A stretch of DNA of 39,329 bases, taken from a bacterium. Lineage in GTDB: Bacteria > Elusimicrobiota > Elusimicrobia > UBA1565 > UBA9628. Positions 23,621 to 39,329 of this stretch are shown here, in pieces. Position 1 is the stretch's first letter. Each line of letters begins with the position of its first letter. The position numbers were made by a program, and so were the translations under genes. The notes under the pieces were generated by a model. The model had not been told where the DNA came from. It was given only the letters and a program-made list of their open reading frames with translations, and ran no database searches. The stretch covers positions 1-39,329 of the forward strand of contig JAKAQO010000012.1 in NCBI GenBank assembly GCA_021822495.1, in the 5' to 3' direction.

Positions 23621-24589
23621 GCGACTGACATGGATTATTTTCGATCCCTCGGGCTCGAATTTAAACGGAATCTGGCGCCAAGCTTTAAGGCTATGAATTA
23701 CGGAAGAACGCTTGGACGGCGGGCAAAAAAGAAGCAAAAACCCGCCGCCCCCAGCTCCCAGAATTTTCCCGCCTACCGCGCCCGCTTTGAGAGCTCTGCG
23801 GTAAACCTGATCGATTTCGTGGTTGGTCACCTCTCCGGTCAGGGATTTTTTGATCTCCCAACTCTCCCGCAGAACTGGTCCGATGGCGTCCACATCTCCT
23901 TTTTGGATTCTGTCTTTAGACCAATAAGCGAGTTCTCTTAGACGTCTCAGACTCTCCATATTCTGAGAGAAATTATTGCGGGCTTTCTTGAGGATGGAAC
24001 CGGCCTTGCGACGCATTCCAGTATAAAACAAAATCATTCGGCTAAAAAGAGCTTCCCGCGTTTTCTCGCTTAGAATTACGGGATTTACTTTCACGCTCTC
24101 ATCCGGCAAAAATTCGATAAATTGAAAACCGCCGTAAGCCGCGATGTATTGATCTTGCTTCCCGATAGGATCTTTGAGCCGCTCAATTTCAATTTCACAC
24201 GCGCCTCGGGCCAATTCTTCCGCCGTGCGAAATTCGCCCTTAAAGGCTGACAAAGCGTGCAAGGTTCCGACAGTAAAGCTGGACGAAGAACCCAAGCCGG
24301 TTCCGCCTGGGATATCGGCCATGGAAGTCATCTCGATTCCGCGATGAAGACCGCTTTGAATCAAGCATTCCCGCCACAGAGGATGGCGAATTTGAGCGGC
24401 CGAATCAACCAGTTCGCTTTTTGAGTATTTGAGAAACACCGCCTCGTCAAAATAGCGGTTAACCGTGATATACATATACTTGTCAATCGCGAAAGACAAG
24501 ACTGCGCCGTGTTCGTGGCGATAAAATTCTCTTAAGTCCGTGCCGCCGCCGGCGAGACTAATTCTAAAAGGCGTGCGGGAAATAATCAT
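23618..24589 (-). CDS. hddA: D-glycero-alpha-D-manno-heptose 7-phosphate 1-kinase-like GHMP kinase
   Basis: 323 residues of the GHMP fold: an N-terminal 'SRTPFRISLAGGGTDL', the phosphate-binding loop 'IPGGTGLGSSSSFTVG' and C-terminal 'GKILGAGGGGFLLLF'. These match HddA-like sugar kinases, which phosphorylate the 1-position of heptose 7-phosphate in the GDP-heptose route. The neighbours gmhA, gmhB and an hddC-like gene make that assignment better than a fucose or galactose kinase. The start overlaps the upstream gene by ATGA, and the stop forms the edge of repeat copy E. Confidence 0.88.
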   Translation of the reverse strand: MIISRTPFRISLAGGGTDLREFYRHEHGAVLSFAIDKYMYITVNRYFDEAVFLKYSKSELVDSAAQIRHPLWRECLIQSGLHRGIEMTSMADIPGGTGLGSSSSFTVGTLHALSAFKGEFRTAEELARGACEIEIERLKDPIGKQDQYIAAYGGFQFIEFLPDESVKVNPVILSEKTREALFSRMILFYTGMRRKAGSILKKARNNFSQNMESLRRLRELAYWSKDRIQKGDVDAIGPVLRESWEIKKSLTGEVTNHEIDQVYRRALKAGAVGGKILGAGGGGFLLLFCPPSKRSSVIHSLKAWRQIPFKFEPEGSKIIHVSR

Positions 24590-25281
24590 TGAGACAATCC
24601 TTTTTCAAAGGCAGAAAAGCGCTCCGGGGTTCCTAAATCCACCAGGGCTTCATCGGTCACGTATCCCGAGAGGCTAAGGCCATTTTTGAGCGCCTGAGGG
24701 AAAATATCCCGCCCAAAATCCGAGGGCCGGTCTTTGGGAATTAAGTCTAAAAGAGGTCTTCTAATCGCCCAAACGGCCGCGCAGGATAAATGTTTGAAAG
24801 GCTGCGCGTGAGCATCCCGGTAAAAGCCTAAAATTTTATCTCCCTCAAGGCGAACCAAATCCGAGTCATGAGGATGATCGGTTTTAAAAAGAACTAGGCT
24901 GGCAGCGGAAGAATGTCCAGCGTGAAAGTCCAAAAATGGTTTTAAGTTCATCTCAACAAACAAATCTCCATAAACGACCAAAATATCCTCCTGAGAGTTT
25001 TGACACGCGTCCCGCACGCATCCCGCCGTGCCTCGCGGCTCAGTCTCAATATAATACTCAAGATAGACCCCCCATGTCTCGCCTTTTTGGAAATAATCGC
25101 GCACAATATTAGCTCTGTGCCCCAGGCAAAGAGAAATTTCGCGAAATCCCGAAGACTTAAGCCACACAATCAAATGCTCTAAAATCGGTTTTCCTAAAAC
25201 CTTGAGCATGGGCTTGGGGATATCCTTAGCAAAAGCGCTCATCCGGGTTCCAAACCCGCCCGCGACAATCAAAACCTTCAT
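24586..25281 (-). CDS. hddC: Heptose-1-phosphate guanylyltransferase-like nucleotidyltransferase
   Basis: 231 residues. The signature 'GGFGTRM' with 'DIPKPMLKVLGKPIL', and 'VVYGDLFVEMNL' carrying the metal-binding Asp, place it in the sugar-nucleotidyltransferase family (RmlA/GMPP-like). By context it is HddC, forming GDP-D-glycero-alpha-D-manno-heptose. The nucleotide used cannot be read from the motif alone. The start ATG 25281 overlaps the gmhB stop as ATGA, preferred over an upstream in-frame ATG at 25296 inside gmhB. It ends in an ATGA overlap with the kinase gene. Confidence 0.87.
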   Translation of the reverse strand: MKVLIVAGGFGTRMSAFAKDIPKPMLKVLGKPILEHLIVWLKSSGFREISLCLGHRANIVRDYFQKGETWGVYLEYYIETEPRGTAGCVRDACQNSQEDILVVYGDLFVEMNLKPFLDFHAGHSSAASLVLFKTDHPHDSDLVRLEGDKILGFYRDAHAQPFKHLSCAAVWAIRRPLLDLIPKDRPSDFGRDIFPQALKNGLSLSGYVTDEALVDLGTPERFSAFEKGLSQ

Positions 25282-25829
25282 TGTTTTAAAATCCACCGGG
25301 AAGCCTCTAAAAGATTTTTGAATATTTTTTTGGGCTTTGCCTTGTATATCCCGTCTTTTCCCCCTTTTCCAGTCTTAACGAGCAAAGGCGCGCATCCCGC
25401 GCGATGAGCCGCCAAAATATCAGCGCTTGAGTCCCCGACAAAATAAGAGGATCTCAGATCAAGATTAAATTTTTTTTGCGCCTTCTTGATGAGCCCAATT
25501 TCAGGCTTGCGGCATGAGCAAGGCTTGCCAAAATCCGGATGATGGGGGCAGTAATAAACGGCGTCAAGACGAGACTTGGGATTTTCTCTTTTAAGCTCCC
25601 GGCGCAAGGCGCGCGTAATTATCTCAAGTCCTGATAAACTCAGGCGTCCGCGAGCAACGGCCGACTGATTGCTGATGACGATGACTTTAAAACCTTTGGC
25701 GCGTAAACGGGCAACGGCTTCTCCAGAGCCTGAAATCAGTTTCAAATCCTCGACTTTGGATAAATAGTCCACTTCTTCGTTTAAGACTCCGTCCCGGTCT
25801 ACAAAAACAGCGCGGTTTTTTAATTTCAA
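25278..25829 (-). CDS. gmhB: Heptose-1,7-bisphosphate 7-phosphatase (HAD family, GmhB)
   Basis: 183 residues. HAD motif I 'VFVDRDGVLNEE', motif II 'VISNQSAVARG', the zinc-binding loop 'YYCPHHPDFGKPCSCRKP' and motif IV 'FVGDSSADILAA' are all present and in the GmhB order. It removes the 7-phosphate from heptose 1,7-bisphosphate before nucleotidyl transfer. It overlaps the upstream GT2 stop (25826-25829) and the downstream hddC-like start, so four heptose enzymes are coupled in one operon. Confidence 0.93.
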   Translation of the reverse strand: MKLKNRAVFVDRDGVLNEEVDYLSKVEDLKLISGSGEAVARLRAKGFKVIVISNQSAVARGRLSLSGLEIITRALRRELKRENPKSRLDAVYYCPHHPDFGKPCSCRKPEIGLIKKAQKKFNLDLRSSYFVGDSSADILAAHRAGCAPLLVKTGKGGKDGIYKAKPKKIFKNLLEASRWILKQ

Positions 25830-26824
25830 AGTTTTTCCTCTTTAAGAAGACCGAAAACAAAGCGCTCCACTTCTCTAAAGCGATCGTCCCGCCTTAAAAA
25901 GAGAGAACGAATCCCTAGATAGTATTCTCTTATTTTTTTCGCCAAGGCCAGAAATGAGCGGGGCGCAAAGGTCGCTTGATAAATCCAGTTGAGTTTCCTC
26001 TTTTTCCCCAATTCCCGCAAAATAAATTGCCTGGCCTCCAAAGGCCGCAAACTCTTTAATAAATATTCGGCGGTTTTTCGAGCGAGTTTGAGTCTTTCAA
26101 TGTCTCTTTGTTGCGGGGCTATTTTTCCCGCATCAAGAGCCATCAGAGATTCCTTATAATTAGTCACATGATCCATGGTAATCTGCGCGGAATGAAGACG
26201 GCGAACAGCCAGCGGCTCTCGAATAGCGCCCACTTGAATTCCTGAAGCCAACATTCGGGCGTAGAGTTCGGTGTCTTCCAGAATTTTCATATCTTCGCGA
26301 AAAAAACCCGCCTGATGAAAAGCCTCTAGGCGAATGGCTAGATTTGTCGTTAAATAAGGGATGTATTCATCCCCCACTGCGTGCCAGCCGGGAACAACGC
26401 CTTCTTCAAGAAAACGCGAAGGATCGAAAACGGTTCCGGTAATTTTCTTCCCGCGCAAAAGATAGGCATTGGAAAACCAGAATCCCCTCTCCGGGCGAGC
26501 GTCAATAAAACGCTTAAACGTCTCCAAGCGATGAGGCAGCCAAATATCGTCGGAGTCCAAAAAAGCGACGAAATTGCCTTGAGCGCGGCGAAGAGCCTCG
26601 TTTCTCCGAACATGCTGGCGGCGATTATCCTCAAAACGAATAAGACGAATCTTTTTTTCCGCTTCAAACTCGCGAAAAACCGCGGGGGTTTCATCCGTTG
26701 AACCATCATCCAGCACAAAACACTCATAATCCTTATAAGTTTGAGCAACTACGCTTTTAAGCGCGGTTCTCAACATCTTGGCGCGATTGTAGGTGGGAAG
26801 GATGATGGAAAAAAAGGGCGGCAT
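25826..26824 (-). CDS. Family 2 glycosyltransferase (GT-A), long C-terminal extension
   Basis: 332 residues. The catalytic domain covers about 1-230: 'SIILPTYNRAKMLRTAL', 'VLDDGSTDET', 'FLDSDDIW' (DxD) and 'EDTELYARML' carrying the likely catalytic acid. About 100 helical, very basic residues follow. It is probably a cytoplasmic transferase adding a sugar, plausibly heptose given the operon, to a lipid-linked glycan (inference). It overlaps gmhB by ATGA and lies six bases after the ATPase gene. Confidence 0.85.
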   Translation of the reverse strand: MPPFFSIILPTYNRAKMLRTALKSVVAQTYKDYECFVLDDGSTDETPAVFREFEAEKKIRLIRFEDNRRQHVRRNEALRRAQGNFVAFLDSDDIWLPHRLETFKRFIDARPERGFWFSNAYLLRGKKITGTVFDPSRFLEEGVVPGWHAVGDEYIPYLTTNLAIRLEAFHQAGFFREDMKILEDTELYARMLASGIQVGAIREPLAVRRLHSAQITMDHVTNYKESLMALDAGKIAPQQRDIERLKLARKTAEYLLKSLRPLEARQFILRELGKKRKLNWIYQATFAPRSFLALAKKIREYYLGIRSLFLRRDDRFREVERFVFGLLKEEKL

Positions 26825-26830
26825 TAGAAG

Positions 26831-27979
26831 TTAAATGATAGCGTCATGGCTTGATTTTCTCCACAAGCGCGCCAAAAATTCCTCCGCTGGTAAAATCTCA
26901 ATTCCAGAATCACTGACGCGCGGGCGCTCTTCCAGGCACACGATGATTTTTTTCTTTAGCGAAATTTCCTCGGCTAAGGCGAGAAGAGAACGCTCATCTC
27001 GAGAAGTCACGACGGCTTTCCCCTTGACCTCGATTGCGACCGCGTCTCCAATCAAGAAATCCACTTCGAATCTCGAGAGGCTCCGCCAATAAGACAGGGG
27101 ATAATCTAAATTAAAATACTCAAGGGCCGCCTTTATTTCGGCAAAAATCAAGTGTTCAAAGGCCTTGCCGAACAAATCGCCGTGGCGCGCGATTTCAAAT
27201 CTTCCAAGAAGTTCATTGACGACTCCCACGTCAAAAAAATAAAACTTCGGCGTCGCGACGGCTTTTCTAGTGATTGTTTTCCGGTAAGGCGGGAGTTCAT
27301 AGGCTATCAATGTATCATAGAGAATCTGAAAATATCCCTTAACCGTATTGAGCGAAAGCCCCACGTCGCTGGCGATATTGGAATAATTAATCTGCTCGGC
27401 ATTAGAAAGGGCCGCGGTCGTTAGAAAGCGGTTGAAAGCGCCGACGTTTCTGGTGAGGCCTTCCGCGCGAATTTCTTCCTCGAGATACAGCCCCGCGTAA
27501 TTTTTAAGTTCCGCTTTAAAATCATCGCTGTCAATGATGCCTGGCAACGAGCCTCTCCGCACACGCAAGTCGATTCTCGCCTCCCCTAATTCGGAGGAGA
27601 CCAGCGGGAACAAATTTTTTCTCCAAATACGCCCCGGGAGGAGATTAACCCCGGAGCGGCGAAGTTTTCGCGCGCTAGATCCCGTCATCAAAACGCGCAA
27701 ATCTTTATTGCGATCGAGCATGACTTGGACCTCGTCAAAAATCTCTGGAAGTTTTTGAGCCTCATCTATGACGACAATCCGAGTTCTTTCCCTAACGCGC
27801 TGACGCAAAAGTTCGGGTCTGGCGCTGAGCTCCCTAAAAACATTGGTTTCGGAAAGGTCGAAATACTGCGCTCCCGAGAGGCTCGCGGCCAAGGTGCTTT
27901 TTCCGGTCTGACGAGGCCCCAAAAGCAAAAGAGATTTTTTTTGAAGCAAGGACTCTAAATTCAATCGTCGCTTATACAT
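26831..27979 (-). CDS. AAA ATPase with DUF4143 domain
   Basis: 382 residues. An N-terminal AAA_14 domain has Walker A 'LLGPRQTGKSTLAA', Walker B 'RIVVIDEAQKLPE' and sensor 'VLMTGSSARKLRR'. The C-terminal half carries the DUF4143 region, ending with a restriction-endonuclease-like 'FEVDFLIGDAVAIEVKGKA' (D, E-x-K pattern). Such proteins are common, often isolated and laterally moved; function is poorly known. The start is uncertain: ATG 27979 (MYKRRLNLE), ATG 27988 or a TTG at 28015, none with a good binding site. It has no obvious link to the glycan genes around it. Confidence 0.85.
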   Translation of the reverse strand: MYKRRLNLESLLQKKSLLLLGPRQTGKSTLAASLSGAQYFDLSETNVFRELSARPELLRQRVRERTRIVVIDEAQKLPEIFDEVQVMLDRNKDLRVLMTGSSARKLRRSGVNLLPGRIWRKNLFPLVSSELGEARIDLRVRRGSLPGIIDSDDFKAELKNYAGLYLEEEIRAEGLTRNVGAFNRFLTTAALSNAEQINYSNIASDVGLSLNTVKGYFQILYDTLIAYELPPYRKTITRKAVATPKFYFFDVGVVNELLGRFEIARHGDLFGKAFEHLIFAEIKAALEYFNLDYPLSYWRSLSRFEVDFLIGDAVAIEVKGKAVVTSRDERSLLALAEEISLKKKIIVCLEERPRVSDSGIEILPAEEFLARLWRKSSHDAII

Positions 27980-28005
27980 TATAATCATGGTGCAATATTT
28001 AGCTA

Positions 28006-28030
28006 AAAAATGCAATAATGTTGCATTTTT
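28006..28030 (-). terminator. Perfect 10-bp hairpin with A/T tracts, likely (bidirectional) terminator
   Basis: The sequence AAAAATGCAA-TAATG-TTGCATTTTT is a perfect 10-bp stem with a five-base loop. On the - strand it lies 16 bases after the stop of the gene ending at 28047 and finishes in a T run, as a Rho-independent terminator would. The stem is AT-rich, so strength is uncertain. It also lies just before the ATPase gene and could act as an operator. Confidence 0.55.
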
Positions 28031-28046
28031 AAATTAAGGATACTCC

Positions 28047-29759
28047 CTAATTCTTAGCGGGCGGCGGTCCAGTCCAAGGGACGAGCGGTCCCCGAAACCT
28101 TATTGAAAGATGCGTTGGACTCGGGGGAGGCGGCAAAATAGGCGGATTAACCGGCGGCTCTTTTGAGCGCTGGAGTTCAACCTGGGACAAAACCAAACTC
28201 GGCGCAATAACCGACATCGGAACCCAGCCAATCCGATGATTGATGACCGTCATATCTTTTCCTTCGCCCAAAACATGGCTAAGAAACCCAAGAGGAGTTC
28301 CTACTAAATCCAAGCCTCGCACCAAGGTTAATTTTCCCGTCTGAGCGTTGACCAAGTAAATAAGTTCCGGCATAATCCGCAAGGATTCTTCTCCTGCGGC
28401 GCTATTTTCCCGGGTAAAAGCCCTTGTCTTTTGAATCCAAAGCCCATACGGCTTTTTTTCTTTTCTTAGCTCCTTAAGCAGTATCTTCATGAGTTGCGCT
28501 TGCGAATAGCGATGTTTAGTTTCTAAAAAAAGATTGCTCGGCATCGCGCGCGGATAAGCCCCCGCATCAGACCTGGCATGTCCATTGGAATGCGGGAAAC
28601 CGATCACGGGATAGCGGGACAAAAGAAAATTTTTAAGGCGCCCGTTTTTAACGAGAAGAACTTTTTGGGCTTTAACGCCTTCAGCATCATAGGAATAAAA
28701 ACCCACCAAGGGTTTTTTCTTGAAAAAATGGGCCAAGGGGTCGTCAATTAAAGTTAGGTCTCTTGAAAACACAATCTTTCCCACTTTGCCTCTCAGAATT
28801 TGCGCGCCATTCGGATTGCGCACGGATTCCCCGGAGAAATTGAGACCCAAGGATGAGACGATAGCCGAGGCGACTGAAGGATCAATCAACGCCGGAGCGT
28901 TAAAGGGCGAGGTCGAGGACGCAAGCAGAAGCTGATTAATTTCCGATATCATCTGTTTGGCTTGAGTTTTCATCAAAACAGAAGAGGGAAGAGTCGCGCT
29001 CGATAAGGAAATAAAATTGCGCCCGGCATAAAGCCTCATCCCGTCTTTGGAAACAGCGGCGATTTCAAGTTCGAAATGAAAAATATCCTGCGCGGAATGA
29101 ACGCGAGTTCCTTCTGAATTATACAAACGGGAAAGAACGCGCCTTCTTTCCACAGAGACGTTTCCTTGAATCAGCGAAGGCTTTTGGGCGAAAACAGAGC
29201 TCACTTCTCGACAAATGCGATTCATCTGGTGAAAGAAAGAAATGCCATCGTCTAATACGTCAAACGGGGCGGCGCTGACCACTGGTTTTTCGTGGGAAAG
29301 GTCATCCGTATCATATTCCCTTTTTCCATTGCGAACCCGTTGGGCTTCTTTTCTCAAAAACCCGGCCGCGGCGGATTTATAAGCCTCATCCAAACTGAGC
29401 CAAAGATCGTGTTTGAGAGCGAAGGCATTGTCATCCAGCGAAATCCATGACCCGAGAGCGCCCAGGGGCGCGGGGTTTAAATGATTATCCAAAGCGTAAC
29501 TGCCGACCCGAACATCCGTAAAAAGCGAACGCCCGCGCCAATTATCCGCCCAATTGAGCGCCCCCATATCGCATTCCGAATCCCAGTTTTCCACGTCCGA
29601 CACGTTCATGGAAATAAAATAGGGAAGCGGATATCCCGGCTCCTGCAAATGAGCCATGGCATTTGTAATTTCAGAAGATACGACCACCCCGACCGTCGAA
29701 TCCAGGGCGAAAGCAGAATAAGGAAGAAATAAAAGTCCAAGGCATAACATTTTTTTCAT
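28047..29759 (-). CDS. Exported TldD/PmbA-family protein lacking the metal site (TldE-like)
   Basis: 570 residues with a clear signal peptide (MKKMLCLGLLFLPYSAFA). The binding site AAAGGA is five bases before ATG 29759. It is a diverged paralogue of the gene at 31990-33813, with shared landmarks: 'NSEGTRV', 'LIDDPLAHFFK', 'KVLLVKNGRLKNFLLSRYP', 'FPHSNGHARS', 'TLVRGLDLVGTPL' and 'GWVPMSVIAPSLVLSQVEL'. Where the paralogue has HEALGH, this one has SSLGLN (about 302-307), and the Cys of the C-terminal metal site is also missing. It therefore resembles TldE, the non-catalytic partner in cytosolic TldD/TldE. The tail is Pro-rich. Export is unusual for the family. Confidence 0.85.
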   Translation of the reverse strand: MKKMLCLGLLFLPYSAFALDSTVGVVVSSEITNAMAHLQEPGYPLPYFISMNVSDVENWDSECDMGALNWADNWRGRSLFTDVRVGSYALDNHLNPAPLGALGSWISLDDNAFALKHDLWLSLDEAYKSAAAGFLRKEAQRVRNGKREYDTDDLSHEKPVVSAAPFDVLDDGISFFHQMNRICREVSSVFAQKPSLIQGNVSVERRRVLSRLYNSEGTRVHSAQDIFHFELEIAAVSKDGMRLYAGRNFISLSSATLPSSVLMKTQAKQMISEINQLLLASSTSPFNAPALIDPSVASAIVSSLGLNFSGESVRNPNGAQILRGKVGKIVFSRDLTLIDDPLAHFFKKKPLVGFYSYDAEGVKAQKVLLVKNGRLKNFLLSRYPVIGFPHSNGHARSDAGAYPRAMPSNLFLETKHRYSQAQLMKILLKELRKEKKPYGLWIQKTRAFTRENSAAGEESLRIMPELIYLVNAQTGKLTLVRGLDLVGTPLGFLSHVLGEGKDMTVINHRIGWVPMSVIAPSLVLSQVELQRSKEPPVNPPILPPPPSPTHLSIRFRGPLVPWTGPPPAKN

Positions 29760-29811
29760 GGTTTCCTTTCGTACAGAATTTGGAGCCAACCATTCCCTCT
29801 CTTAGGCTCGG

Positions 29812-31083
29812 TCATGATTCTTTCTTTAAAAATAAAGTATCGAAAGCGTAGGCCGCTTGTGGAATAACTCCTACCATCAAAGTCGTATGATAGCGCATGA
29901 CCGCCCAAAAAAGTCCGTAAACCACCGACATCACTATTGGAAATAGGATTAAAAACCCAATTGGATAACCATTTTTCCAAGCTAAAATATTGCCCCAAAG
30001 TCCAAAAGCCATGACCCCGCCGCCTGTCAGAATCCCAATCCAAGAAAGAATTGAGTGTGAAAAAATCGAGTGCGGATATTTCCATCCAGGATTAGGATAA
30101 GGCCGCCAAAGTTTTAGGAGCTTATGAATGAAGGCGCCCAAAAAGAGCGCCGGATGATGGATGAAAATTTCGAGACAAGCACGATAAAAAATCGGTTCGG
30201 CCTGGGATAAGGTCAAATGTTGAGAGTTGACTGAGGAAATAACCGCGTCTTTTCCCGCCCCAAGGGGATATTCGAGCGGAATATCCGGACGCGAATAGTT
30301 ATAGAGAAGGGATAAATACATGACCGAGCCCCCCATGCTTGCCCCAGCCACCCAACGATTTAAGATTCTTTCATTGCGATACATCCAGATACCCTCTAGG
30401 ATAAAAGCGCATAGAAGAAAAACTCCAATCGTTTGCGCCCAATATTTGGGTTTAATTTTTGAAGCGGCTAAAATGGCAAAAGCGCCCCCCATTGGGATAA
30501 AAGGAGACCGGGTTAAACACAGAATCCCAAAAACCGTTCCCATTGCGGCATAAGGCCATAAACTTTGTGAATCCGAGTATTTTTGCCAAAGAAAAATCCA
30601 AATCAAACTCAAAAAGGTGATGAGAGGTTCTCGAAACATCGTTGCGGAAAAATAAATCCATTCAGGGAAAAAAGCCGCAAACAAAAGAGCTATGAGGGCT
30701 GCCCGCCCGCTTTGGAAAACAGAAAGAGTCACCCAATACGTCATCCAACAGCACAAGACGCCGATGACGATATTAAGCCCCATTCCCACAAGAGGCGAAA
30801 GCCCAAAAAGGAAATGAGCCCCCGCCAACACAAGGGGATAAAAAGGTTCGCGAGAGGTCTCTAGATGACCCGGCGTCAGAGAAAGCTCGCCGCGCTCAAG
30901 CAAGGCAAGTCCAAGGCGATTGTATCCATCGGGATCAAGCGCCGTAATCTGTTGGCTTTCGGTTTTATATTCCTTGAAAGTATGAGTGTAAGCGTAAAAA
31001 GCGTAGGCCGTTCTTAGGATAAACGCCGAGAAAAGAATAAGAGTAATTTTTAAAGGCGCCTGAGTTATCTTTTTCTCGCGCAT
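29812..31083 (-). CDS. Polytopic GT-C-type membrane glycosyltransferase
   Basis: 423 residues with about nine TM helices. After TM1 the first loop has 'ITALDPDGYNRLGLALLERG', the Asp-containing motif of PMT/ArnT-like GT-C enzymes. 'LTRSPFIP' and 'GIWMYRNERIL' are also seen in such proteins. There is no large soluble C-terminal domain. It overlaps the methyltransferase gene by 19 bp and is followed after 52 bp by the exported TldE-like gene, so all are one transcript. Substrate unknown. Confidence 0.75.
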   Translation of the reverse strand: MREKKITQAPLKITLILFSAFILRTAYAFYAYTHTFKEYKTESQQITALDPDGYNRLGLALLERGELSLTPGHLETSREPFYPLVLAGAHFLFGLSPLVGMGLNIVIGVLCCWMTYWVTLSVFQSGRAALIALLFAAFFPEWIYFSATMFREPLITFLSLIWIFLWQKYSDSQSLWPYAAMGTVFGILCLTRSPFIPMGGAFAILAASKIKPKYWAQTIGVFLLCAFILEGIWMYRNERILNRWVAGASMGGSVMYLSLLYNYSRPDIPLEYPLGAGKDAVISSVNSQHLTLSQAEPIFYRACLEIFIHHPALFLGAFIHKLLKLWRPYPNPGWKYPHSIFSHSILSWIGILTGGGVMAFGLWGNILAWKNGYPIGFLILFPIVMSVVYGLFWAVMRYHTTLMVGVIPQAAYAFDTLFLKKES

Positions 31084-31988
31084 ATTTCCATTGAATCTCG
31101 AGTATCGATGTAGGCGAGCTTGTTTTCAAGACCAAGAGCCTTAATGACTCCGCCAACCGTCAAAAAAACGGATTTCGGATAGTTTTTCAATCGACTCAGC
31201 CAATACGAATAGGAAAAAATTCGCCCAAAAGATTTAATGGTCAATATTTCAAACCCATTTTCAATCAGCATTCGCGTCAATGTCTGTCTTGAAAAATAAT
31301 AAATGTGCGCCGGGCGAAGCCCCCACCAGTAACTGCGCATAATTTTGGCCGAAAGACTTCCGATGTCGGGAGTCAAAAGGTAGAGAATCCCGCCGGGTTT
31401 TAAAAAATTGCGGGATGAGAGAATTGCCGCTTTGGGATCGAGAAGATGCTCGATGACATCTGACATCGCAACGACATCAAAACTTCTTCCCTGGATGCTC
31501 TTTGGATTTTCAATTGATTCTGCGTAGCACTCAACTTTAAATCTTTTCTGGGCCTCTTGGGTTGCCCAACGGGAAGGCTCAAGACCCGTGACTTCAAAGT
31601 CGGTTCTCGCAGCGTTAAGGAAATAACCAACGGAAGAACCAAACTCAAGCAAAGAGCCCGCCGAAACAAACCGCCGAATAGTATTGAGGCTTAAATGCGC
31701 GTTAATGGAACGGCTTGAGCTTTCTAAAAGATAGCTTTCATCAACGTAATTTCCGTAGCCGGAAAGAATAGCTTCGGCCGTGGGGCGAGGGTTGGTATAA
31801 CATAAACCGCATTTTAAACAGCGGACAATGCGGCCATAGTTACGAAACTCATCGGTCGTGGCGGCAAAAGCTCCAGACTCTTGATCATGCGGAGTCAGAT
31901 ACGGACGCTGGTAAAGAACGGCGCTTTCTCTGGAACCGCACAAATTGCAGGGCGCTTCTTCTAAAAGTAAAGAAGAGTCTTCTGCCAT
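31065..31988 (-). CDS. Class I SAM-dependent methyltransferase with N-terminal zinc-finger-like motif
   Basis: 307 residues. The N-terminal 'CNLCGS' and 'RCLKCGLCYTNPRP' form the two Cys pairs seen before many Methyltransf_23 domains in sugar clusters. The SAM domain runs about 105-215, with 'LLEFGSSVGYFL' (motif I), 'VTGLEPS', 'VVAMSDVIEHLLDP' and 'LKPGGILYLLTPD'. The likely target is a sugar or a lipid-linked glycan, by analogy with nearby genes. It starts one base after the exported peptidase gene's stop, with GGGGAAA upstream inside that gene, and overlaps the GT-C gene. Confidence 0.86.
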   Translation of the reverse strand: MAEDSSLLLEEAPCNLCGSRESAVLYQRPYLTPHDQESGAFAATTDEFRNYGRIVRCLKCGLCYTNPRPTAEAILSGYGNYVDESYLLESSSRSINAHLSLNTIRRFVSAGSLLEFGSSVGYFLNAARTDFEVTGLEPSRWATQEAQKRFKVECYAESIENPKSIQGRSFDVVAMSDVIEHLLDPKAAILSSRNFLKPGGILYLLTPDIGSLSAKIMRSYWWGLRPAHIYYFSRQTLTRMLIENGFEILTIKSFGRIFSYSYWLSRLKNYPKSVFLTVGGVIKALGLENKLAYIDTRDSMEICARKR

Positions 31989-31989
31989 T

Positions 31990-33813
31990 TTAATTTTTCC
32001 CCGAGGACATGGACGAGGGCGCGGTCAAGACCGGAGGCCGAGCGTCCCCAGCCGTCTTGAGAAATACTTTGCCGCTGGGCGGCGCGGTCAAGACCGAAGG
32101 CCGAGCGTCCCCGTCGCGTTTTAGTAAATGCGCCAGCGGAGAGGGCAAAATCGGAGGCTTGAGGCGGTTTTCAGGCAAACGCTCAAATTCAATTTCTGAA
32201 ACTAAAACGCTCGGCGCTATTTGATCCACCGGAACCCAGCCCGATTCCGCCCCGCAAAAATAGGGATTGGAAAGAGTTTCATCGTTAGAAGCCGCGAGAA
32301 TACGATTTAAAACGACCAAGGGCGTGACGACAATTTTAACGCCTCGGACCAGGGTCTCTTTTCCGTCCTTAGCTGAAATTCGGTAAACCAAACGCGGGCG
32401 CAACTGCAAGGTCTGGGCCTGGGTTCTCTCGCTGGGATTGTCCCCGCCGTAAGCGCCGACAACCCTAAATCCGTAAGGCTTGTTTTCTTGGCGCAGGAGT
32501 TTGATTAATTTCTTTTTCAGCGCTTTGGGTGTCACAGGGTTTTGAGCCTCAATCATTAAGTTGGCCATGCGCCCCAAGGGACGTAAGCTTGGAGAGGAAC
32601 GCCCATGCCCATTGGAATGCGGGAAATTTTTAAGCGGCCAGCGAGACATTAAAAAATTTTTCAAGACGCCGTTTTTAACTAAAATGACTCTTTGGGCAGG
32701 CACGCCCTCATCGTCAATCTGGTAATGCCCATGAAGCGGGACCCCCTTAAAAAAATCCATCATGGGGTCATCAATCACAGACAGAAAACTCGGAATAATT
32801 TTTTTGCCGACCATTCCTTTAAATATTTGTCCCTGCAAAGGGTCTCTTTGCCTTTCCCCCTCCAGTTTATGCCCCAAGGCCTCGTGAAATAAAACCCCCG
32901 TCATTTCTGGATCTAAAATTGCGGGCGCGGCAACCGGAACTTGAAGGGGAGCCTTTCGCAACTCTTTAAGCTCAAGAGCCAATCTTTCCACGGCCTTCGC
33001 CAACTGTTTTTGAGAAGGAAGTCGGCTCATATCTTTGAAAACCCACTCGCGGTAATTATTGACCTTAAGCCCGTCTTTTGCCCGGGAATTAACCTCAATA
33101 CTGAGAGAATTGGGCAAATTCTCATAAGGCCCCGCGACCTTGGTTCCTTCGCTGGTCAAAAGATAGCGCCGCGCCCATCCTAAATGCAAAACGACGGTTC
33201 CGTGATAAATATAAGGATAAGAGCGCAAAAGCTTGCTCAAGCTTTTAACCAAGGACTCCGCCTTAGATTTATCGAAATCAGGAGCGGCTTGGGGTTGATA
33301 AGAACGGGTTGAGGGTTCATCGGTAAAATCCGGCAAATTCTCCGTCCGATATTCCGTTACGCGCTTGGCTTTTTTGTCCAAATATCCCGCCACCGCGTCT
33401 TTATAGGCTTTATCGGTCAATATCCACAAATTTTCGCGCAATTCTTTTCCCGTCAGAGGAGATTCCACGCTTAGGCCCCGATACTGAATGGAGGTGTTAT
33501 CCATCTTTTTATTTCCGTAGCGAACTTCCGCAAAAAGAGTTTGGGAATGCTCCGCGCTTTCAGACACAATCCCGCCAAAAGAAGCGGAAATATACATCCC
33601 TTGCCGAGAGACCATGCGATAGGCGATAAAATAAGGCGGTCCAAAAGCGCCTTCTTTTAAATCTTTGAGCGAACGTGTCATTTCTTCCTGCAGGGGAGAA
33701 AAAACGGCCTCATCCACCGCTGGGAAAGTAACGGCTCTGACAGAAACAGCCAAAGAAACAACACTGAGGATGAAAAGAGTGAGTTGACGACTACTTCTTT
33801 TGAATAATCTCAT
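31990..33813 (-). CDS. Exported TldD-family metallopeptidase with intact HExxxH
   Basis: 607 residues. A basic N-terminus and hydrophobic core (LTLFILSVVSLAVSVRA) form a signal peptide. The middle carries 'GVLFHEALGHKLEGE', the HExxxH of TldD (H310, E311, H315). The C-terminal part has 'NPYFCGAESGWVP' with Cys520 in the position expected for the third zinc ligand, and the family segments 'VKNGVLKNFLMS' and 'FPHSNGHGRS'. Known TldD enzymes are cytosolic and act with TldE on modified peptides and unfolded antitoxins; an exported version suggests a substrate in the envelope (inference). The tail contains a 63-bp internal duplication. It overlaps the O-antigen ligase gene by 23 bp. Confidence 0.88.
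   Translation of the reverse strand: MRLFKRSSRQLTLFILSVVSLAVSVRAVTFPAVDEAVFSPLQEEMTRSLKDLKEGAFGPPYFIAYRMVSRQGMYISASFGGIVSESAEHSQTLFAEVRYGNKKMDNTSIQYRGLSVESPLTGKELRENLWILTDKAYKDAVAGYLDKKAKRVTEYRTENLPDFTDEPSTRSYQPQAAPDFDKSKAESLVKSLSKLLRSYPYIYHGTVVLHLGWARRYLLTSEGTKVAGPYENLPNSLSIEVNSRAKDGLKVNNYREWVFKDMSRLPSQKQLAKAVERLALELKELRKAPLQVPVAAPAILDPEMTGVLFHEALGHKLEGERQRDPLQGQIFKGMVGKKIIPSFLSVIDDPMMDFFKGVPLHGHYQIDDEGVPAQRVILVKNGVLKNFLMSRWPLKNFPHSNGHGRSSPSLRPLGRMANLMIEAQNPVTPKALKKKLIKLLRQENKPYGFRVVGAYGGDNPSERTQAQTLQLRPRLVYRISAKDGKETLVRGVKIVVTPLVVLNRILAASNDETLSNPYFCGAESGWVPVDQIAPSVLVSEIEFERLPENRLKPPILPSPLAHLLKRDGDARPSVLTAPPSGKVFLKTAGDARPPVLTAPSSMSSGKN
32018..32112 (+). repeat. 63-bp-period tandem duplication at the 3' end of the exported tldD-like gene
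   Basis: Two 32-bp blocks starting GGCGCGGTCAAGACCG (32018-32049 and 32081-32112) differ at one base. They encode GDARPxVLTAP twice on the - strand, 21 residues apart, in the protein's tail after the conserved domain. The repeat keeps the reading frame. Confidence 0.85.
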
Positions 33814-36358
33814 AGCCGGAAGAATGCGATGGAACTTCAGAAGGGTTTTGAATCAAGGGTTTGCCTTTTGGATTTTTGAGCCTCTGTTCAACGGCTGCGA
33901 GGTTATGCTGGGCCTGGGCGAAATTTGGGTCAAACTGAAGAGCCTCTTGGTAGGCGGCCTTGGCGAGTTCAAAATTATTCATCATGAAATAAGCGTTTCC
34001 TAAACTTGTGTAAATCTCTCCCCCTTCCGCGTGTTTATCCGGCGAAGGGTGCCGATGAACTGGATAAGGAATTCCAGGAACATGAACGTAGGTTTGATAA
34101 CTGAGAATCGTTTTTCTAAGGAAAGGCTTGACGATAAGAGACGGGTCTACCGCGCATTTATCCGCCAAAATATATTCCTGATACGCTTTGACGGCATCGG
34201 CATAGCGATGTTCCATCATGTAAATCTGACCCATCCTCAAGAAGTTCGGTTCAAAAACAGGATCGATGGTCTTGTAAAGCTTAAAGCGGGTGAGGGCGCG
34301 GTTTAAATACATCTGCGCATCCTCGGGATGCCCGTGATCAATGGCCCATTGAGCGCGCTTGAGATGAAGGACTCCTACCTGATAGTGCATCTGAACGTAA
34401 TTAGGCGAAAGTTTTCGGACTTCATTATAGGCGTCCAAGGCCCGCTCATAATCATCGCGAGGAACATTGTTTTTATCGCCCCAGGTGGGATTATAAGTTT
34501 TCTGCATATTAAACCGGTCGTTGAAAACATTTCCCATAAAGTAAAGCGCCATCGCAAAATTTGGATCAAGCCGATGCACCGTTTGATATTCAGACAAAGC
34601 CTTGTCCCAATCATGTTCCTTTGAAAAATAAATGGCGATATTATGATGAATATCGGCTTTAAAATAGCCCCAGAAGGTATAAAGAATAGGAAGCGTTGAC
34701 AAGACAAGCGCGCCAATGGCAGGATTCTCAGACAAAAGAATAAGGCGGAAAAAAACATATCCCAAACCAAAGACGCAGGCTAGCAGGGTTCCCCACGACA
34801 ACCACCACTGGAGGATTTCCCCTCCCATGGTCAGGCGATCAATCGGACCTTGCAAAACGTTAAATTGAGTCAAGATCAGAAAAATGACGTAGAAAAGCCC
34901 GCCCCAAGCAGCCAGCCGAACCGGCCAGATTAAAAATTCAGACAGCGTTTTCCAAAATGAATCCGGCGCCGCGCCATCTGGTTTAGCGTTTTTCTCATCA
35001 ACAAGATGAGATTCATACAACCCTTTTCCTCGGGAAAGGTTTACAATCATCCCTGGCAAAAGACCCAAATAAACTCCGGAGGAGACAAAACGAAGACTGA
35101 CATCGAAAAAATTGTGGCACAACATGCCGATAAACGCAATCATATAGCCCAAAAGATCAAAAACTCTAGGCGGAATTTTTTTGTCTTTCGATGCGTAAGA
35201 AGCGTCTAACATCTGGCCTAAAGACTTAAAACCAACGACCAAGGTACTAAGAATAAGCCATAAAAACACGCCAAAACCCAGGATTCCGTTGTCAAACAAC
35301 TCTTCTAAGTATTCGTCTTCCGCGTGATCGGTTTCCGTATTATGCTTGGCCTCGATATGAAAAATTGGAGGACGCCGAAAAGCGGGATAAACCGGCGGAA
35401 AACTTCCGATGCCCGTTCCAATAAATGGTTGAGTCATAATCATTTCCCAAGTGGCTTCCCAGGTAAATAAGCGAAAATTGACCGAAGCAAGGCGACCGGT
35501 TAAGTCTTTCGTGAAGATATATGAAAACGGCAATAAGACCGCGAGCGCCCCTCCAATCAAATATTTTCGATAGGGAGCAATGAGTTCCTTAAAATAGATA
35601 AAGGCAATGACGCAGAAAACGACGATCACAATTCCAAATCCGACCCAAGCCCCCTTGGTTCCCGTAAAATAGAGATCAACTAGAAGCATCAGCATGAGCG
35701 GGATCAAAGACATTCGGCGGCCTTTAAGGTAACGCAAGAGTAAAATGGGAAAAATAATAACGAGAAAATCCGCGAAAAAATTGGGATTGCCATAAGTCGA
35801 GAATACGCGGTCGCCAAAAGCCATGCGCCAGATAAATGGATCAATTCCATGACCAATTCCCGGCGGGAAGAAATGAGTATCAATAACTTGGAGAAACCCA
35901 TATCCCACCGCCACCCAGGCCGTCCAAATTAAGATTTTTGTCAACCGTTCAGAGGCTTCGGCGTCAAATTCATAAATAATGATGAGCGCCGCCGACATAA
36001 AGAAAAAATGACGGAGAAAAAAATCAACGCTGGCCATGTGATAGGGCGCATGGATAAAGGATAGAATTCCAACCAAAAGATAAGCCAAGAACGGAGACAA
36101 GCACACCAAATCTTCTCGGCTAAGCGCCGCGCCGCCGGATTCAATCAGACGACTGAGCCATAGGGTCAAAAGCGCTAATCCCCCCATTTGCATGACGGAT
36201 ATTTTGACCTGGGCGGAATCGTAGGTTCTCAGATAAAACAGGGAAGAAATTAAAAAATAGAGAAGCGGAAGCCACCAAACGATGGATTTATGGAGAAAAG
36301 ATTGAAGTTCCAAAGACTTCTTAAGCGAAGCGATTTTGTCTTTAATTACGGGCGGCAT
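33791..36358 (-). CDS. O-antigen ligase / polymerase-like membrane protein with C-terminal TPRs
   Basis: About 855 residues. Ten or more TM helices occupy roughly 25-460 and 485-590. The Wzy_C-type loop includes 'YGNPNFFADFLVIIFP', 'TGTKGAWVGFGIVI', 'RLFTWEATWEMIMTQPFIG' and 'DHAEDEYLEELFDNGILG', all characteristic of O-antigen ligases and PglL-like oligosaccharyltransferases. The last 260 residues contain TPRs ('DKALSEYQTVHRLDPNF', 'ELAKAAYQEALQFDPNF'), facing the periplasm if topology is standard. It would join a lipid-linked glycan to lipid A core, protein or another glycan; the TPRs favour a protein partner. ATG 36358 is taken as start; a TTG just upstream (36361) is possible. First gene of its operon. 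Confidence 0.87.
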   Translation of the reverse strand: MPPVIKDKIASLKKSLELQSFLHKSIVWWLPLLYFLISSLFYLRTYDSAQVKISVMQMGGLALLTLWLSRLIESGGAALSREDLVCLSPFLAYLLVGILSFIHAPYHMASVDFFLRHFFFMSAALIIIYEFDAEASERLTKILIWTAWVAVGYGFLQVIDTHFFPPGIGHGIDPFIWRMAFGDRVFSTYGNPNFFADFLVIIFPILLLRYLKGRRMSLIPLMLMLLVDLYFTGTKGAWVGFGIVIVVFCVIAFIYFKELIAPYRKYLIGGALAVLLPFSYIFTKDLTGRLASVNFRLFTWEATWEMIMTQPFIGTGIGSFPPVYPAFRRPPIFHIEAKHNTETDHAEDEYLEELFDNGILGFGVFLWLILSTLVVGFKSLGQMLDASYASKDKKIPPRVFDLLGYMIAFIGMLCHNFFDVSLRFVSSGVYLGLLPGMIVNLSRGKGLYESHLVDEKNAKPDGAAPDSFWKTLSEFLIWPVRLAAWGGLFYVIFLILTQFNVLQGPIDRLTMGGEILQWWLSWGTLLACVFGLGYVFFRLILLSENPAIGALVLSTLPILYTFWGYFKADIHHNIAIYFSKEHDWDKALSEYQTVHRLDPNFAMALYFMGNVFNDRFNMQKTYNPTWGDKNNVPRDDYERALDAYNEVRKLSPNYVQMHYQVGVLHLKRAQWAIDHGHPEDAQMYLNRALTRFKLYKTIDPVFEPNFLRMGQIYMMEHRYADAVKAYQEYILADKCAVDPSLIVKPFLRKTILSYQTYVHVPGIPYPVHRHPSPDKHAEGGEIYTSLGNAYFMMNNFELAKAAYQEALQFDPNFAQAQHNLAAVEQRLKNPKGKPLIQNPSEVPSHSSGYEIIQKK

Positions 36359-36411
36359 CAAGAAATCCTAGCAAAAACGCGAGCAAATATCGTTAGATAT
36401 CGTAAAGAGGT

Positions 36412-36500
36412 ATGAAAACAAAGAAAATATTCGTGACGGGGTCATCGGGGCTGATTGGTTCCGAGGTTTGCATTTATTTTGGAAAGCGGGGTTTTAAAGT
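36412..36500 (+). repeat. 89-bp perfect direct repeat, left copy
   Basis: It is identical to 39203-39291. It begins exactly at the ATG of the epimerase fragment; the upstream flanks of the two copies are unrelated. Together the copies bracket a segment of about 2.8 kb. Confidence 0.92.
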
Positions 36501-36597
36501 TGAGGGCTTAGACAACAACCAACGCATAGCCGTCATTCCCTTGCCTTTATCCGCACGAGTTTGCCGCGAAAAATTCAAATTGGACGCAAATATCTAA
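36412..36597 (+). pseudogene. 5' fragment of an NAD-dependent tyvelose/paratose-epimerase-like gene
   Basis: The first 38 codons (MKTKKIFVTGSSGLIGSEVC...) encode the Rossmann start of an extended SDR and end at 'DNNQR'. The same 38 residues begin the gene at 39203. After codon 38 (about 36525) similarity stops, and a short unrelated tail runs to TAA at 36595-36597, giving 61 residues where about 350 are expected. The catalytic half is missing, so it is a deletion remnant or a recombination scar. The first 89 nt are identical to the copy at 39203; the next 27 nt differ only at synonymous positions. A GT2 gene follows at once. Confidence 0.85.
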
Positions 36598-36604
36598 TTC
36601 CTGA

Positions 36605-37381
36605 ATGAACGAACCATCGGCGACGCCATTAAAACTTTTGTCCGTTGTTATTCCCGCTCGCAATGAAGAAGGCTGTATCGCGGCAACCGTTGAACATCTG
36701 CACGTGGAACTAAGACTCCAAAATATTCCGCATGAGATTGTCGTCATTGATGATGGAAGTAAGGACCGGACCTGGGAAATCTTACAAAAACTTTCTCAGC
36801 GCATTCCTGAGATAAAACCATTTAAAAACGAGGGTGAACACGGTTTTGGCCGCGCGGTTCAACTGGGCTTAGAACATTATCAGGGCAATGCGGTCGTCAT
36901 CATGATGGCCGATGAGTCCGATGATTGCCGGGATGTGACGCGTTACTGGCAAAAGCTGGGCGAGGGGTTTGACTGCGTTTTTGGGAGCCGGTTTATGAAA
37001 GGCGGCGGCGTGATTGATTATCCGCGCATTAAGCTTATTTTCAACCGCCTAGCTAATTTGTTTATCCGTGTCTTGTTTGGCTTTAAGCTCAACGATACCA
37101 CCAATGCCTTCAAGGCTTACCGAAGAGAAGTCATTGATGGCTGCCGTCCGTTCTTATCCCCGCATTTTAACTTAACGGTGGAGTTGCCGCTCAAAGCCAT
37201 TGTGCGCAGATATTCCTGGACCGTCGTTCCCATCACTTGGCGAAACCGAAAAGCGGGCGAGGCTAAATTTAAGATTAAAGAGATGGGTAGCCGCTACCTT
37301 TTCATCTGCCTCTATGTTTGGCTCGAAAAATATTTCTCAAGGGGAGACTACAACAAACGAATTAAAGGAAAAATATCGTAA
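36605..37381 (+). CDS. Family 2 glycosyltransferase (DPM1/GtrB-like, soluble)
   Basis: 258 residues: 'SVVIPARNEEGCIAATVEHL', 'VVIDDGSKDRTW', and 'MMADESDD' as the metal-site segment, then 'RFMKGGGVIDYPR' and 'DTTNAFKAYRREVI', all typical of polyprenyl-phosphate sugar transferases. There is no C-terminal TM pair. It should provide a lipid-linked sugar for the GT-C-like membrane protein at 37472. It follows the epimerase remnant by seven bases, an order usual for intact epimerase-GT2 pairs in glycan clusters, so it probably once belonged to such a pair. Confidence 0.86.
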   Translation: MNEPSATPLKLLSVVIPARNEEGCIAATVEHLHVELRLQNIPHEIVVIDDGSKDRTWEILQKLSQRIPEIKPFKNEGEHGFGRAVQLGLEHYQGNAVVIMMADESDDCRDVTRYWQKLGEGFDCVFGSRFMKGGGVIDYPRIKLIFNRLANLFIRVLFGFKLNDTTNAFKAYRREVIDGCRPFLSPHFNLTVELPLKAIVRRYSWTVVPITWRNRKAGEAKFKIKEMGSRYLFICLYVWLEKYFSRGDYNKRIKGKIS

Positions 37382-37391
37382 TAATGCAATC

Positions 37392-37475
37392 ATGTTCGCC
37401 AGAATTCCCGGATGGAATAAATCCAAGGCGTGGGACGACTTGGCGGAGTATTATCAACTACAAGAAAAACCATGA
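37392..37475 (+). CDS. Short ORF of 27 codons coupled to the next gene; possible remnant
   Basis: ATG 37392 starts MFARIPGWNKSKAWDDLAEY, and the 27-residue product ends with TGA at 37473-37475, overlapping the next ATG (37472) as ATGA. The frame stays open upstream through the 3' end of the GT2 gene. The sequence looks like real protein (two Trp, a mixed amphipathic helix) but matches no family I know. It could be the last codons of a deleted gene or a small coupled leader. No clear ribosome binding site is present at 37392. Confidence 0.35.
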   Translation: MFARIPGWNKSKAWDDLAEYYQLQEKP

Positions 37476-39199
37476 GTGACAAGTTGGATTACACCAGGAA
37501 TGGACGCGGTTTTCAAATCGCCCTATGGTCTTTTTATGTGCCCGTGTTTCTTATTGTCGCAATTATCGCCTCATATTTTCTTTATATTCATTTTTTGGGC
37601 GTTAATGTTCTCTTTTGGGATGATTGGGACGGTTTCCTCCCGATTTATCGGGATTTTATTTTTAATTCAGGTTTCAAATGGAATACTTTACTCGCTTTAC
37701 TAAAAACAAGCCATAATGGAAATTTGATGGTGATCCCGTTTGGGTTTATGATTATTGAAGGCTATTTAACGCACCTCAACAGTAAAGTTATAATGTATAC
37801 AGGCGCTTTTTTTCAATGCGCATCATTTGTCCTTCTCTCTTTTCTGGCTGAGCCGATATTGCCAAAAGGAAAATCTCGTTTTTGGTATTTAGTTCCTATC
37901 GCTTGTTTTTTATTTTCTTTTTGCCAGTACGAAAATATTCTCTGGGATTTTCAGTTAGCTTGGTTTATGATCGTATTGTTTCTTATATCTGCATTGTATT
38001 TGGTTGATCTAGCCCTTTATGGCATTGCGAGATTTCCATGTTTTTCGTTCGGCATCGCCTGCGCTACACTAGCCTCTTTTTCTTCTCTTCAGGGATTGGC
38101 GGTCTGGCCCGCTGTAGCAGCCTATATAGCGTTAAAACGAAGACCAGTTTTAAAAACTAATTTAGAGATTTTGAGAGACGCTTTTTTTGCTACATGGACT
38201 GTTTGCGGGGCAACGACTATTCTTGTTTTCTTTATGGTTTCTCGCTTTGGCGGGTACGGTATATCTTCTGACATTGCTACCCATGGACGTGGACTGGGAG
38301 GTTTACTCTTGTATTCTCTCGCCCATTGGCGCCATAGTTTTCGTTTTCTTCTTGCTTCTTGGGAAGGGGTCTTATTGACTCGTGCGAGCCAATTTCCATT
38401 CATGGGCGTTCTCCTCGCTATTTTTCTTGCCATTTTTTTAATGAATTTATATCGTTCAAAACACAAATATTTATATGCGCTTCCGTCTTCGCTTGTTCTA
38501 TTTGGTCTACTATTTGGTTTCATGTTGGTTATAGGTCGTTGTGGGTGGGGAATAGATGAAGCGCGCAGCTCCCGCTACTCCACAAACACCTTAATTTTGG
38601 TTGTAGGGCTCTATCTTGGTCTATTAAGCTTCTTGAAAGACTATCCATCCGAGAAATTGCCATATTCTTTTTTAAGTGTGAAGGCTTTATTTGGCAGCTT
38701 TTTGCTAACTTTCATTTTGGTCAATAATTCTTTAGGCATTGCTCGCGGACGCTCATGGAGCAGAAAGCAATGGGGCAATGTTCTCATATTGACTCATTAT
38801 TTAGACATTCCTCAATTTAATATGGAACGTACGATTTTCCCTAACCCAGATTTTCTAAAAGTACAAGCGCGCTTCTTACGTTCTCATAACCTTAATGTTT
38901 ATCGGATTAATTTGCTTTCTGAAATGCCAAGATATTATAGAGAACTTATTAATCCTCCTAGCTCTTATGTTTTGCTTGAAAATCAGAATCCTCAACAAAA
39001 AAAAGCTCTCGAACAATTGTGGTTCGTCTACACTATGACCCCAGATATCATGCGAACCTCTCGGACAAATTCTATTACTCCCGAGATACTAGCTTGGGCT
39101 TGCAGTAGGACTAGAGTGAACTGGCATCATATGCACCGCTATCTTGTTCCTTACGCATTAGATTATGAGTTGCTTTGCCAAAAATTAAAAAAGGGATAA
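37472..39199 (+). CDS. Polytopic membrane protein, GT-C/GtrII-like, AT-rich
   Basis: 575 residues. TM1 is at about 13-38, and the following loop has 'NVLFWDDWDGFLPIYRDF' and then 'TSHNGNLMVIPFGFM'. This W-D-(D/E)-W-D plus HN-x-(N/H) arrangement is seen in polytopic proteins of O-antigen and glycan loci thought to be GT-C transferases (from memory; not verified). About 10-11 TM helices run to residue 435, then a soluble tail of about 140 residues with 'PQQKKALEQLW'. Codon use is visibly more AT-rich than in neighbouring genes, pointing to recent acquisition. ATG 37472 overlaps the preceding short ORF. Confidence 0.65.
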   Translation: MSDKLDYTRNGRGFQIALWSFYVPVFLIVAIIASYFLYIHFLGVNVLFWDDWDGFLPIYRDFIFNSGFKWNTLLALLKTSHNGNLMVIPFGFMIIEGYLTHLNSKVIMYTGAFFQCASFVLLSFLAEPILPKGKSRFWYLVPIACFLFSFCQYENILWDFQLAWFMIVLFLISALYLVDLALYGIARFPCFSFGIACATLASFSSLQGLAVWPAVAAYIALKRRPVLKTNLEILRDAFFATWTVCGATTILVFFMVSRFGGYGISSDIATHGRGLGGLLLYSLAHWRHSFRFLLASWEGVLLTRASQFPFMGVLLAIFLAIFLMNLYRSKHKYLYALPSSLVLFGLLFGFMLVIGRCGWGIDEARSSRYSTNTLILVVGLYLGLLSFLKDYPSEKLPYSFLSVKALFGSFLLTFILVNNSLGIARGRSWSRKQWGNVLILTHYLDIPQFNMERTIFPNPDFLKVQARFLRSHNLNVYRINLLSEMPRYYRELINPPSSYVLLENQNPQQKKALEQLWFVYTMTPDIMRTSRTNSITPEILAWACSRTRVNWHHMHRYLVPYALDYELLCQKLKKG

Positions 39200-39202
39200 A
39201 TC

Positions 39203-39291
39203 ATGAAAACAAAGAAAATATTCGTGACGGGGTCATCGGGGCTGATTGGTTCCGAGGTTTGCATTTATTTTGGAAAGCGGGGTTTTAAAGT
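39203..39291 (+). repeat. 89-bp perfect direct repeat, right copy
   Basis: It is identical to 36412-36500 and begins at the ATG. From 39292 on the two copies differ at nearly every third codon position while encoding the same residues, until the left copy breaks off about 25 bases later. Confidence 0.92.
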
Positions 39292-39329
39292 CGAAGGGCT
39301 TGACAATAATCAGCGCGCGGTGTTTTTCG
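39203..39329 (+). CDS. NAD-dependent tyvelose/paratose-epimerase-like SDR, 5' part (runs off window)
   Basis: ATG 39203 follows AAAAAGGGA with good spacing. The 42 visible codons give a Rossmann motif 'VTGSSGLIGSEVCIYFGKRG' and continue 'DNNQRAVFF', the usual reading of CDP-tyvelose/paratose 2-epimerase-like proteins. It is thus the intact member of the pair, the other being the fragment at 36412. It is three bases after the stop of the GT-C-like gene. Confidence 0.8.
   Translation, partial: MKTKKIFVTGSSGLIGSEVCIYFGKRGFKVEGLDNNQRAVFF

Follow-up and report, generated by a model that had tools for sequence, protein, structure and literature searches.

A probable scar of gene conversion and of a deletion inside a duplicated glycan-donor operon in an uncultured bacterium

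Near its right end, the stretch of DNA analysed here carries a copy of a three-gene operon, epiA-epiB-GT2, that is without most of its two epimerase genes. This remnant is probably the scar of gene conversion, in the form of concerted evolution, and of a deletion within a glycan-donor operon that exists in more than one copy; conversion as the cause is our inference, and so are the roles of the enzymes and the order and direction in which things happened. The stretch, called the window (positions 1-39329), is all of contig C13 in a metagenome-assembled genome of 15 contigs (G000). The repeated unit is the whole operon, present in three places of the genome, and not the single epimerase that the original prediction had taken to be duplicated. 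In relatives, epiA (356 aa) and epiB (354 aa) are tandem paralogues, followed by the GT2 at some loci; runs of epiA-epiB-GT2 are also seen outside this phylum, in several others (for example L085, L090, L097, L110, L120, L121 and L149). Genes were named by PDB and NCBIfam similarity, and three congeners (G001, G002 and G003) were compared with G000 at the locus of the remnant, locus 1.

The two epiA copies of the window are identical over their first 89 nt (36412-36500 and 39203-39291, + strand), a stretch that is also present in contig C5. Both then encode VEGLDNNQR over nine codons, of which seven differ (codons 30-33 and 35-37), every change being silent: the eight mismatches, at gene positions 90, 93, 96, 97, 99, 105, 108 and 111, all lie in the 25 nt that follow the identity (36501-36525, +). 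This is exactly what had been reported at the outset. Under random placement over 38 codons, the seven changed ones would all be among the final nine with p = 2.9e-6, uncorrected for the choice of the split point; the pattern is not due to chance. Upstream of the ATG the two copies diverge at once, and a tract that starts exactly there is expected because the homology between the copies starts there. In the 25-nt island, the left copy agrees with its closest relative, the locus-1 epiA of the sister genome G003, at 22 of 25 positions, against 17 of 25 with the right copy; short as the stretch is, this suggests surviving native sequence. In the 89-nt tract the G003 sequence is equally distant from every copy (72/89), so the direction of transfer cannot be polarised. 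An 89-nt tract beside eight silent changes in 25 nt supports the earlier proposal that an otherwise diverged copy was homogenised.

The left copy consists of 114 nt of epiA, about 30 nt without assignment (36526-36555, +), the last ~45 nt of epiB (36556-36603, +) and then an intact GT2. Beyond codon 38 its frame leaves epiA and runs through 23 codons of unrelated sequence to a stop at 36597. The copy is thus broken, as had been claimed; the break, however, is not at nt 89, and is instead either an internal deletion from epiA to epiB or the junction of a gained segment. The epiB codons that end up fused in this way are of the cassette type, 90% identical over 30 nt to those of contigs C15 and C9. 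For the 30 nt at the junction, no convincing match was found among related loci. This sequence and a motif downstream of the GT2 were also considered as dispersed repeats and rejected: the window held two matches against 0.84 expected, and genome-wide there were only matches with two mismatches, 13 against 3 in a backwards control, which formed no family. Upstream of its ATG, the left copy has GTTAGATATCGTA in common with locus 1 of G001 and G003 and therefore sits in its native position.

The right epiA 5' end (39203-39329, +) is the last 127 nt of C13, which stops at a branch of the assembly graph. The same 127 nt form the reversed start of C5. C15 and C9 likewise have a 127-nt end in common, and five more pairs of contig ends in the assembly are shared or overlap by exactly 127 nt, which gives an assembly k of 127. 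The right epimerase thus belongs to a collapsed repeat, of which it forms one arm; C13 and C5 are the upstream flanks and C15 and C9 the downstream flanks, and by synteny the gene would continue towards C15. The middle of the right epiA-epiB, about 1.5-1.7 kb as judged from the gene lengths in G003, is absent from the assembly, so that full identity to the second locus (locus 2, below) is extrapolated from its two ends.

It is very unlikely that the assembler, or a mixture of strains, created the left copy or the match between it and the right one, even in a metagenome assembly whose contig stops at a repeat-induced branch. At 89 nt, the match falls short of k, causes no graph branch of its own and is for that reason an improbable assembly product; moreover, a single contig spans the 2.8 kb between the copies, the left flank has its orthologue in locus 1 of the congeners, and a remnant with private differences does not look like the product of a collapse. 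In a further congener, G004, contigs also break inside epiA (L073:1-629 and L074:12325-12585), perhaps for the same cause; recurrent homogenisation was sought there, in an assembly without locus 1. Conversion at such loci would explain why assemblies break at them.

The constant left neighbour of epiA in G001, G002 and G003 is a gene for a Wzy/O-antigen-ligase-like protein with C-terminal TPRs (33791-36361, − strand; Pfam Wzy_C 9e-17 and TPR), whose orthologues are 91-93% identical. In the congeners, locus 1 reads Wzy, epiA-epiB, a 580-aa gene, GT2' and purA, on one contig in both G001 and G003; G003 retains part of the 580-aa gene only, and the G002 contig stops within it. In G000, the 580-aa gene, GT2' and purA are on C15, and this synteny on either side points to C13 and C15 as a single locus. 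A second locus of G002, with the order WbsX-GTC-GTC-GT2-epiA-epiB-GT2, matches C5 and then C9 (locus 2). We infer both joins, C13-C15 and C5-C9, from gene order.

No GT2 or GT-C gene follows epiB at locus 1 of G001, G002 or G003. As the GT2 and the membrane gene are missing in all three, the material GT2-GT-C-epiA-epiB-GT2-537aa was most likely gained at locus 1 of the present genome, loss in three congeners being less simple. The view of the 2.8 kb as a glycosyltransferase segment gained at a glycan locus agrees with this absence. The 537-aa membrane gene, located on C15, is also present in four more genera of this family with neither epiA nor epiB nearby, and so does not date the event.

It is possible, though we would not favour it, that homologous recombination at the epimerase 5' end brought in the GT2-GT-C segment and that such exchange serves to change the surface glycan. 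Direct repeats of epiA flank the segment, it is missing from locus 1 of the three congeners, its GT-C gene is AT-rich (GC 39% (0.394) versus 46.5% (0.465) for the window), and the GT-C genes adjoining the operon vary. Against this, the left junction connects codon 38 of epiA with the last part of epiB by way of the 30 unassigned nt and is not a clean homologous junction, and a second GT2 and the 537-aa gene on C15 are also part of what was gained, which calls for more than one step. With so irregular a junction, and seen in a single genome, entry at the epimerase 5' end and a change of surface glycan are plausible but no more than that.

Somewhat less probable still is a history without any imported cassette, in which a resident epiA-epiB-GT2-GT-C unit was duplicated in tandem at locus 1 and then lost its left epiA-epiB. 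The module-GT-C-module order fits this account, as does an intact left GT2 similar to the other copies, but in G001 and G002 neither a GT2 nor a GT-C gene stands beside the epiB of locus 1, and the unit must then first have been lost in those lineages. Nor do the GT2 3' ends agree with it, since they differ in type: that of the left copy, like the intergenic stretch after it (37382-37471, +), resembles C9 and not C15. As for a transposon or integron cassette, there are no inverted repeats of at least 24 nt in 25000-39329, and no recombinase gene lies between the two copies. A wider scheme, which we consider improbable, would make epiA-epiB-GT2 a homology address: GT-C cassettes would move between loci and strains by recombination in the operon, and conversion within the genome would keep the address functional.

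The GT2 and epiB sequences bear on gene conversion, the reading we prefer. The three GT2 copies of the genome are 100/97/96% identical, the paralogues of the left copy standing at 96-97%, and the left GT2 is a mosaic against the C15 and C9 copies. Its private differences are clustered, by the longest gap between them (293 nt, p 3e-4), by the sum of squares (p 1.5e-4, ~1e-4) and by the presence of ten in 45 nt (p 5e-5). Both in the GT2 and in the 5' block, tracts with no differences thus lie beside clustered ones, a patchy identity. Between C15 and C9, the identity of the epiB 3' parts is 97.9%, versus 77-79% with G003 and about 70% with others, and both parts group with locus 1 of G003. Paralogues within the genome are therefore more alike, in this part of epiB, than orthologues between species, next to older flanks, as in concerted evolution. 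These data do not show the right copy to be an old, diverged epimerase gene, as the original prediction had it: the right copy is identical to C5 over 127 nt, and the epiB parts of both loci are 98% identical. The GT-C genes of locus 2 are just 41-52% identical between G000 and G002.

Gene conversion would work as follows. Locus 1 in this lineage would have acquired GT2-GT-C and a second, full epiA-epiB-GT2, and RecA-type homologous exchange among the operon copies would overwrite them patchwise. In the left copy, the patch would run from the ATG, which is the edge of homology because the upstream flanks differ, to codon 30, with older silent differences persisting beyond. The 25-nt and GT2 islands are short, however, and the clustered silent differences could instead be a diverged allele imported from another strain, with no overwriting of a resident copy. 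If conversion is the cause, the window illustrates in detail, for an uncultured lineage, how it can keep sugar-donor genes uniform while the glycosyltransferases next to them diverge.

The left GT2 (36605-37381, +) is a putative polyprenyl-phosphate sugar synthase by its homology to DPM synthase and ArnC (Pfam Glycos_transf_2 6e-26); among solved structures it matches a dolichol-phosphate mannose synthase, PDB 5mlz (1e-23). A 'short ORF' once listed as part of the cassette (37200-37475) overlaps it in another frame, has no family match in a Pfam search and is probably not a gene.

The membrane gene between the GT2 and the right epiA (37472-39199, +) encodes 575 aa and, by its predicted structure, a glycosyltransferase of GT-C fold, in line with what had been guessed from the letters. 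Its AlphaFold2 model has a pLDDT of 79. In VIA-align the model reaches Z 16.9 with OST STT3 and also aligns with EmbB, Pmt4, ArnT and other GT-C enzymes; ranks 1-46 are chains of GT-C type, and at rank 47 the score drops to Z 3.8. The fold assignment comes from this second structural comparison and not from Foldseek, which alone gave no match at E 0.001; the protein has no Pfam or NCBIfam match, and a profile search against PDB sequences found nothing. Contig C5 has relatives at locus 2 (38% and 30%), and each of the five genomes of the genus has some; elsewhere in the phylum they are sporadic, with 9 of 289 other sampled genomes, and in phages none were found. The gene, which is missing from locus 1 of the congeners, belongs to a family (37472-39199; L008:1004-4509; L078:5790-7415) with no Pfam or NCBIfam entry that has four members in this genome. 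The window thereby draws attention both to this family and to a three-gene donor operon conserved in several phyla.

For both epiA and epiB, the best solved relative is CDP-tyvelose 2-epimerase (PDB 9rl0, 1orr), at distant similarity; here, unlike that enzyme, two different paralogues stand in tandem. The products, SDR enzymes resembling CDP-tyvelose 2-epimerase, may make or remodel a nucleotide sugar, which the GT2 would load on polyprenyl phosphate for transfer, by the GT-C next to it, outside the membrane. A comparable division of labour is described for three-component extracytoplasmic glycosylation (Gtr; GT136 pentofuranose systems), where a GT2-type polyprenyl-phosphate sugar synthase works with a variable GT-C and epimerases define the sugar (PMC11127046). 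The window has the synthase, by homology alone, and the GT-C, by predicted fold; no flippase for a lipid-linked sugar was found among the proteins scanned. It departs from those systems in putative epimerases that resemble CDP-tyvelose 2-epimerase and in a GT-C outside Pfam and NCBIfam.

Conversion at this glycan operon would be a known sort of event, met here in an uncultured lineage. In the O-antigen clusters of Salmonella, recombination keeps shared genes alike while specific genes diverge, divergence changes abruptly along genes, and a segment is duplicated; chimeric genes and a broken tyv gene are left over (PMC3715488). The same kinds of event appear at the operon of the window; in Salmonella, strains are compared with one another at one locus, whereas here the evidence comes from comparing two loci and a remnant of the same genome.

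Several other genes deserve mention. Before a WbsX/GT9-like protein at L008:4506-7816, repeated stretches resemble its own N-terminus (tblastn). Several ATPase-like genes, recognised by eye, lie at 4378-16617 of L007 (contig C9); similar ones follow locus 2 in G002 (L043:395-4350), and short DNA stretches of the two regions match at 70-76%. In the window, nucleotidyltransferase-like and HAD phosphatase-like genes (24586-25829, −) look by eye like heptose-nucleotide synthesis. Two large paralogous genes of the same cluster, at 28047-29789 (580 aa) and 31990-33813 (607 aa), both on the − strand, share a 113-nt stretch at 73% identity (28577-28689 and 32604-32716).
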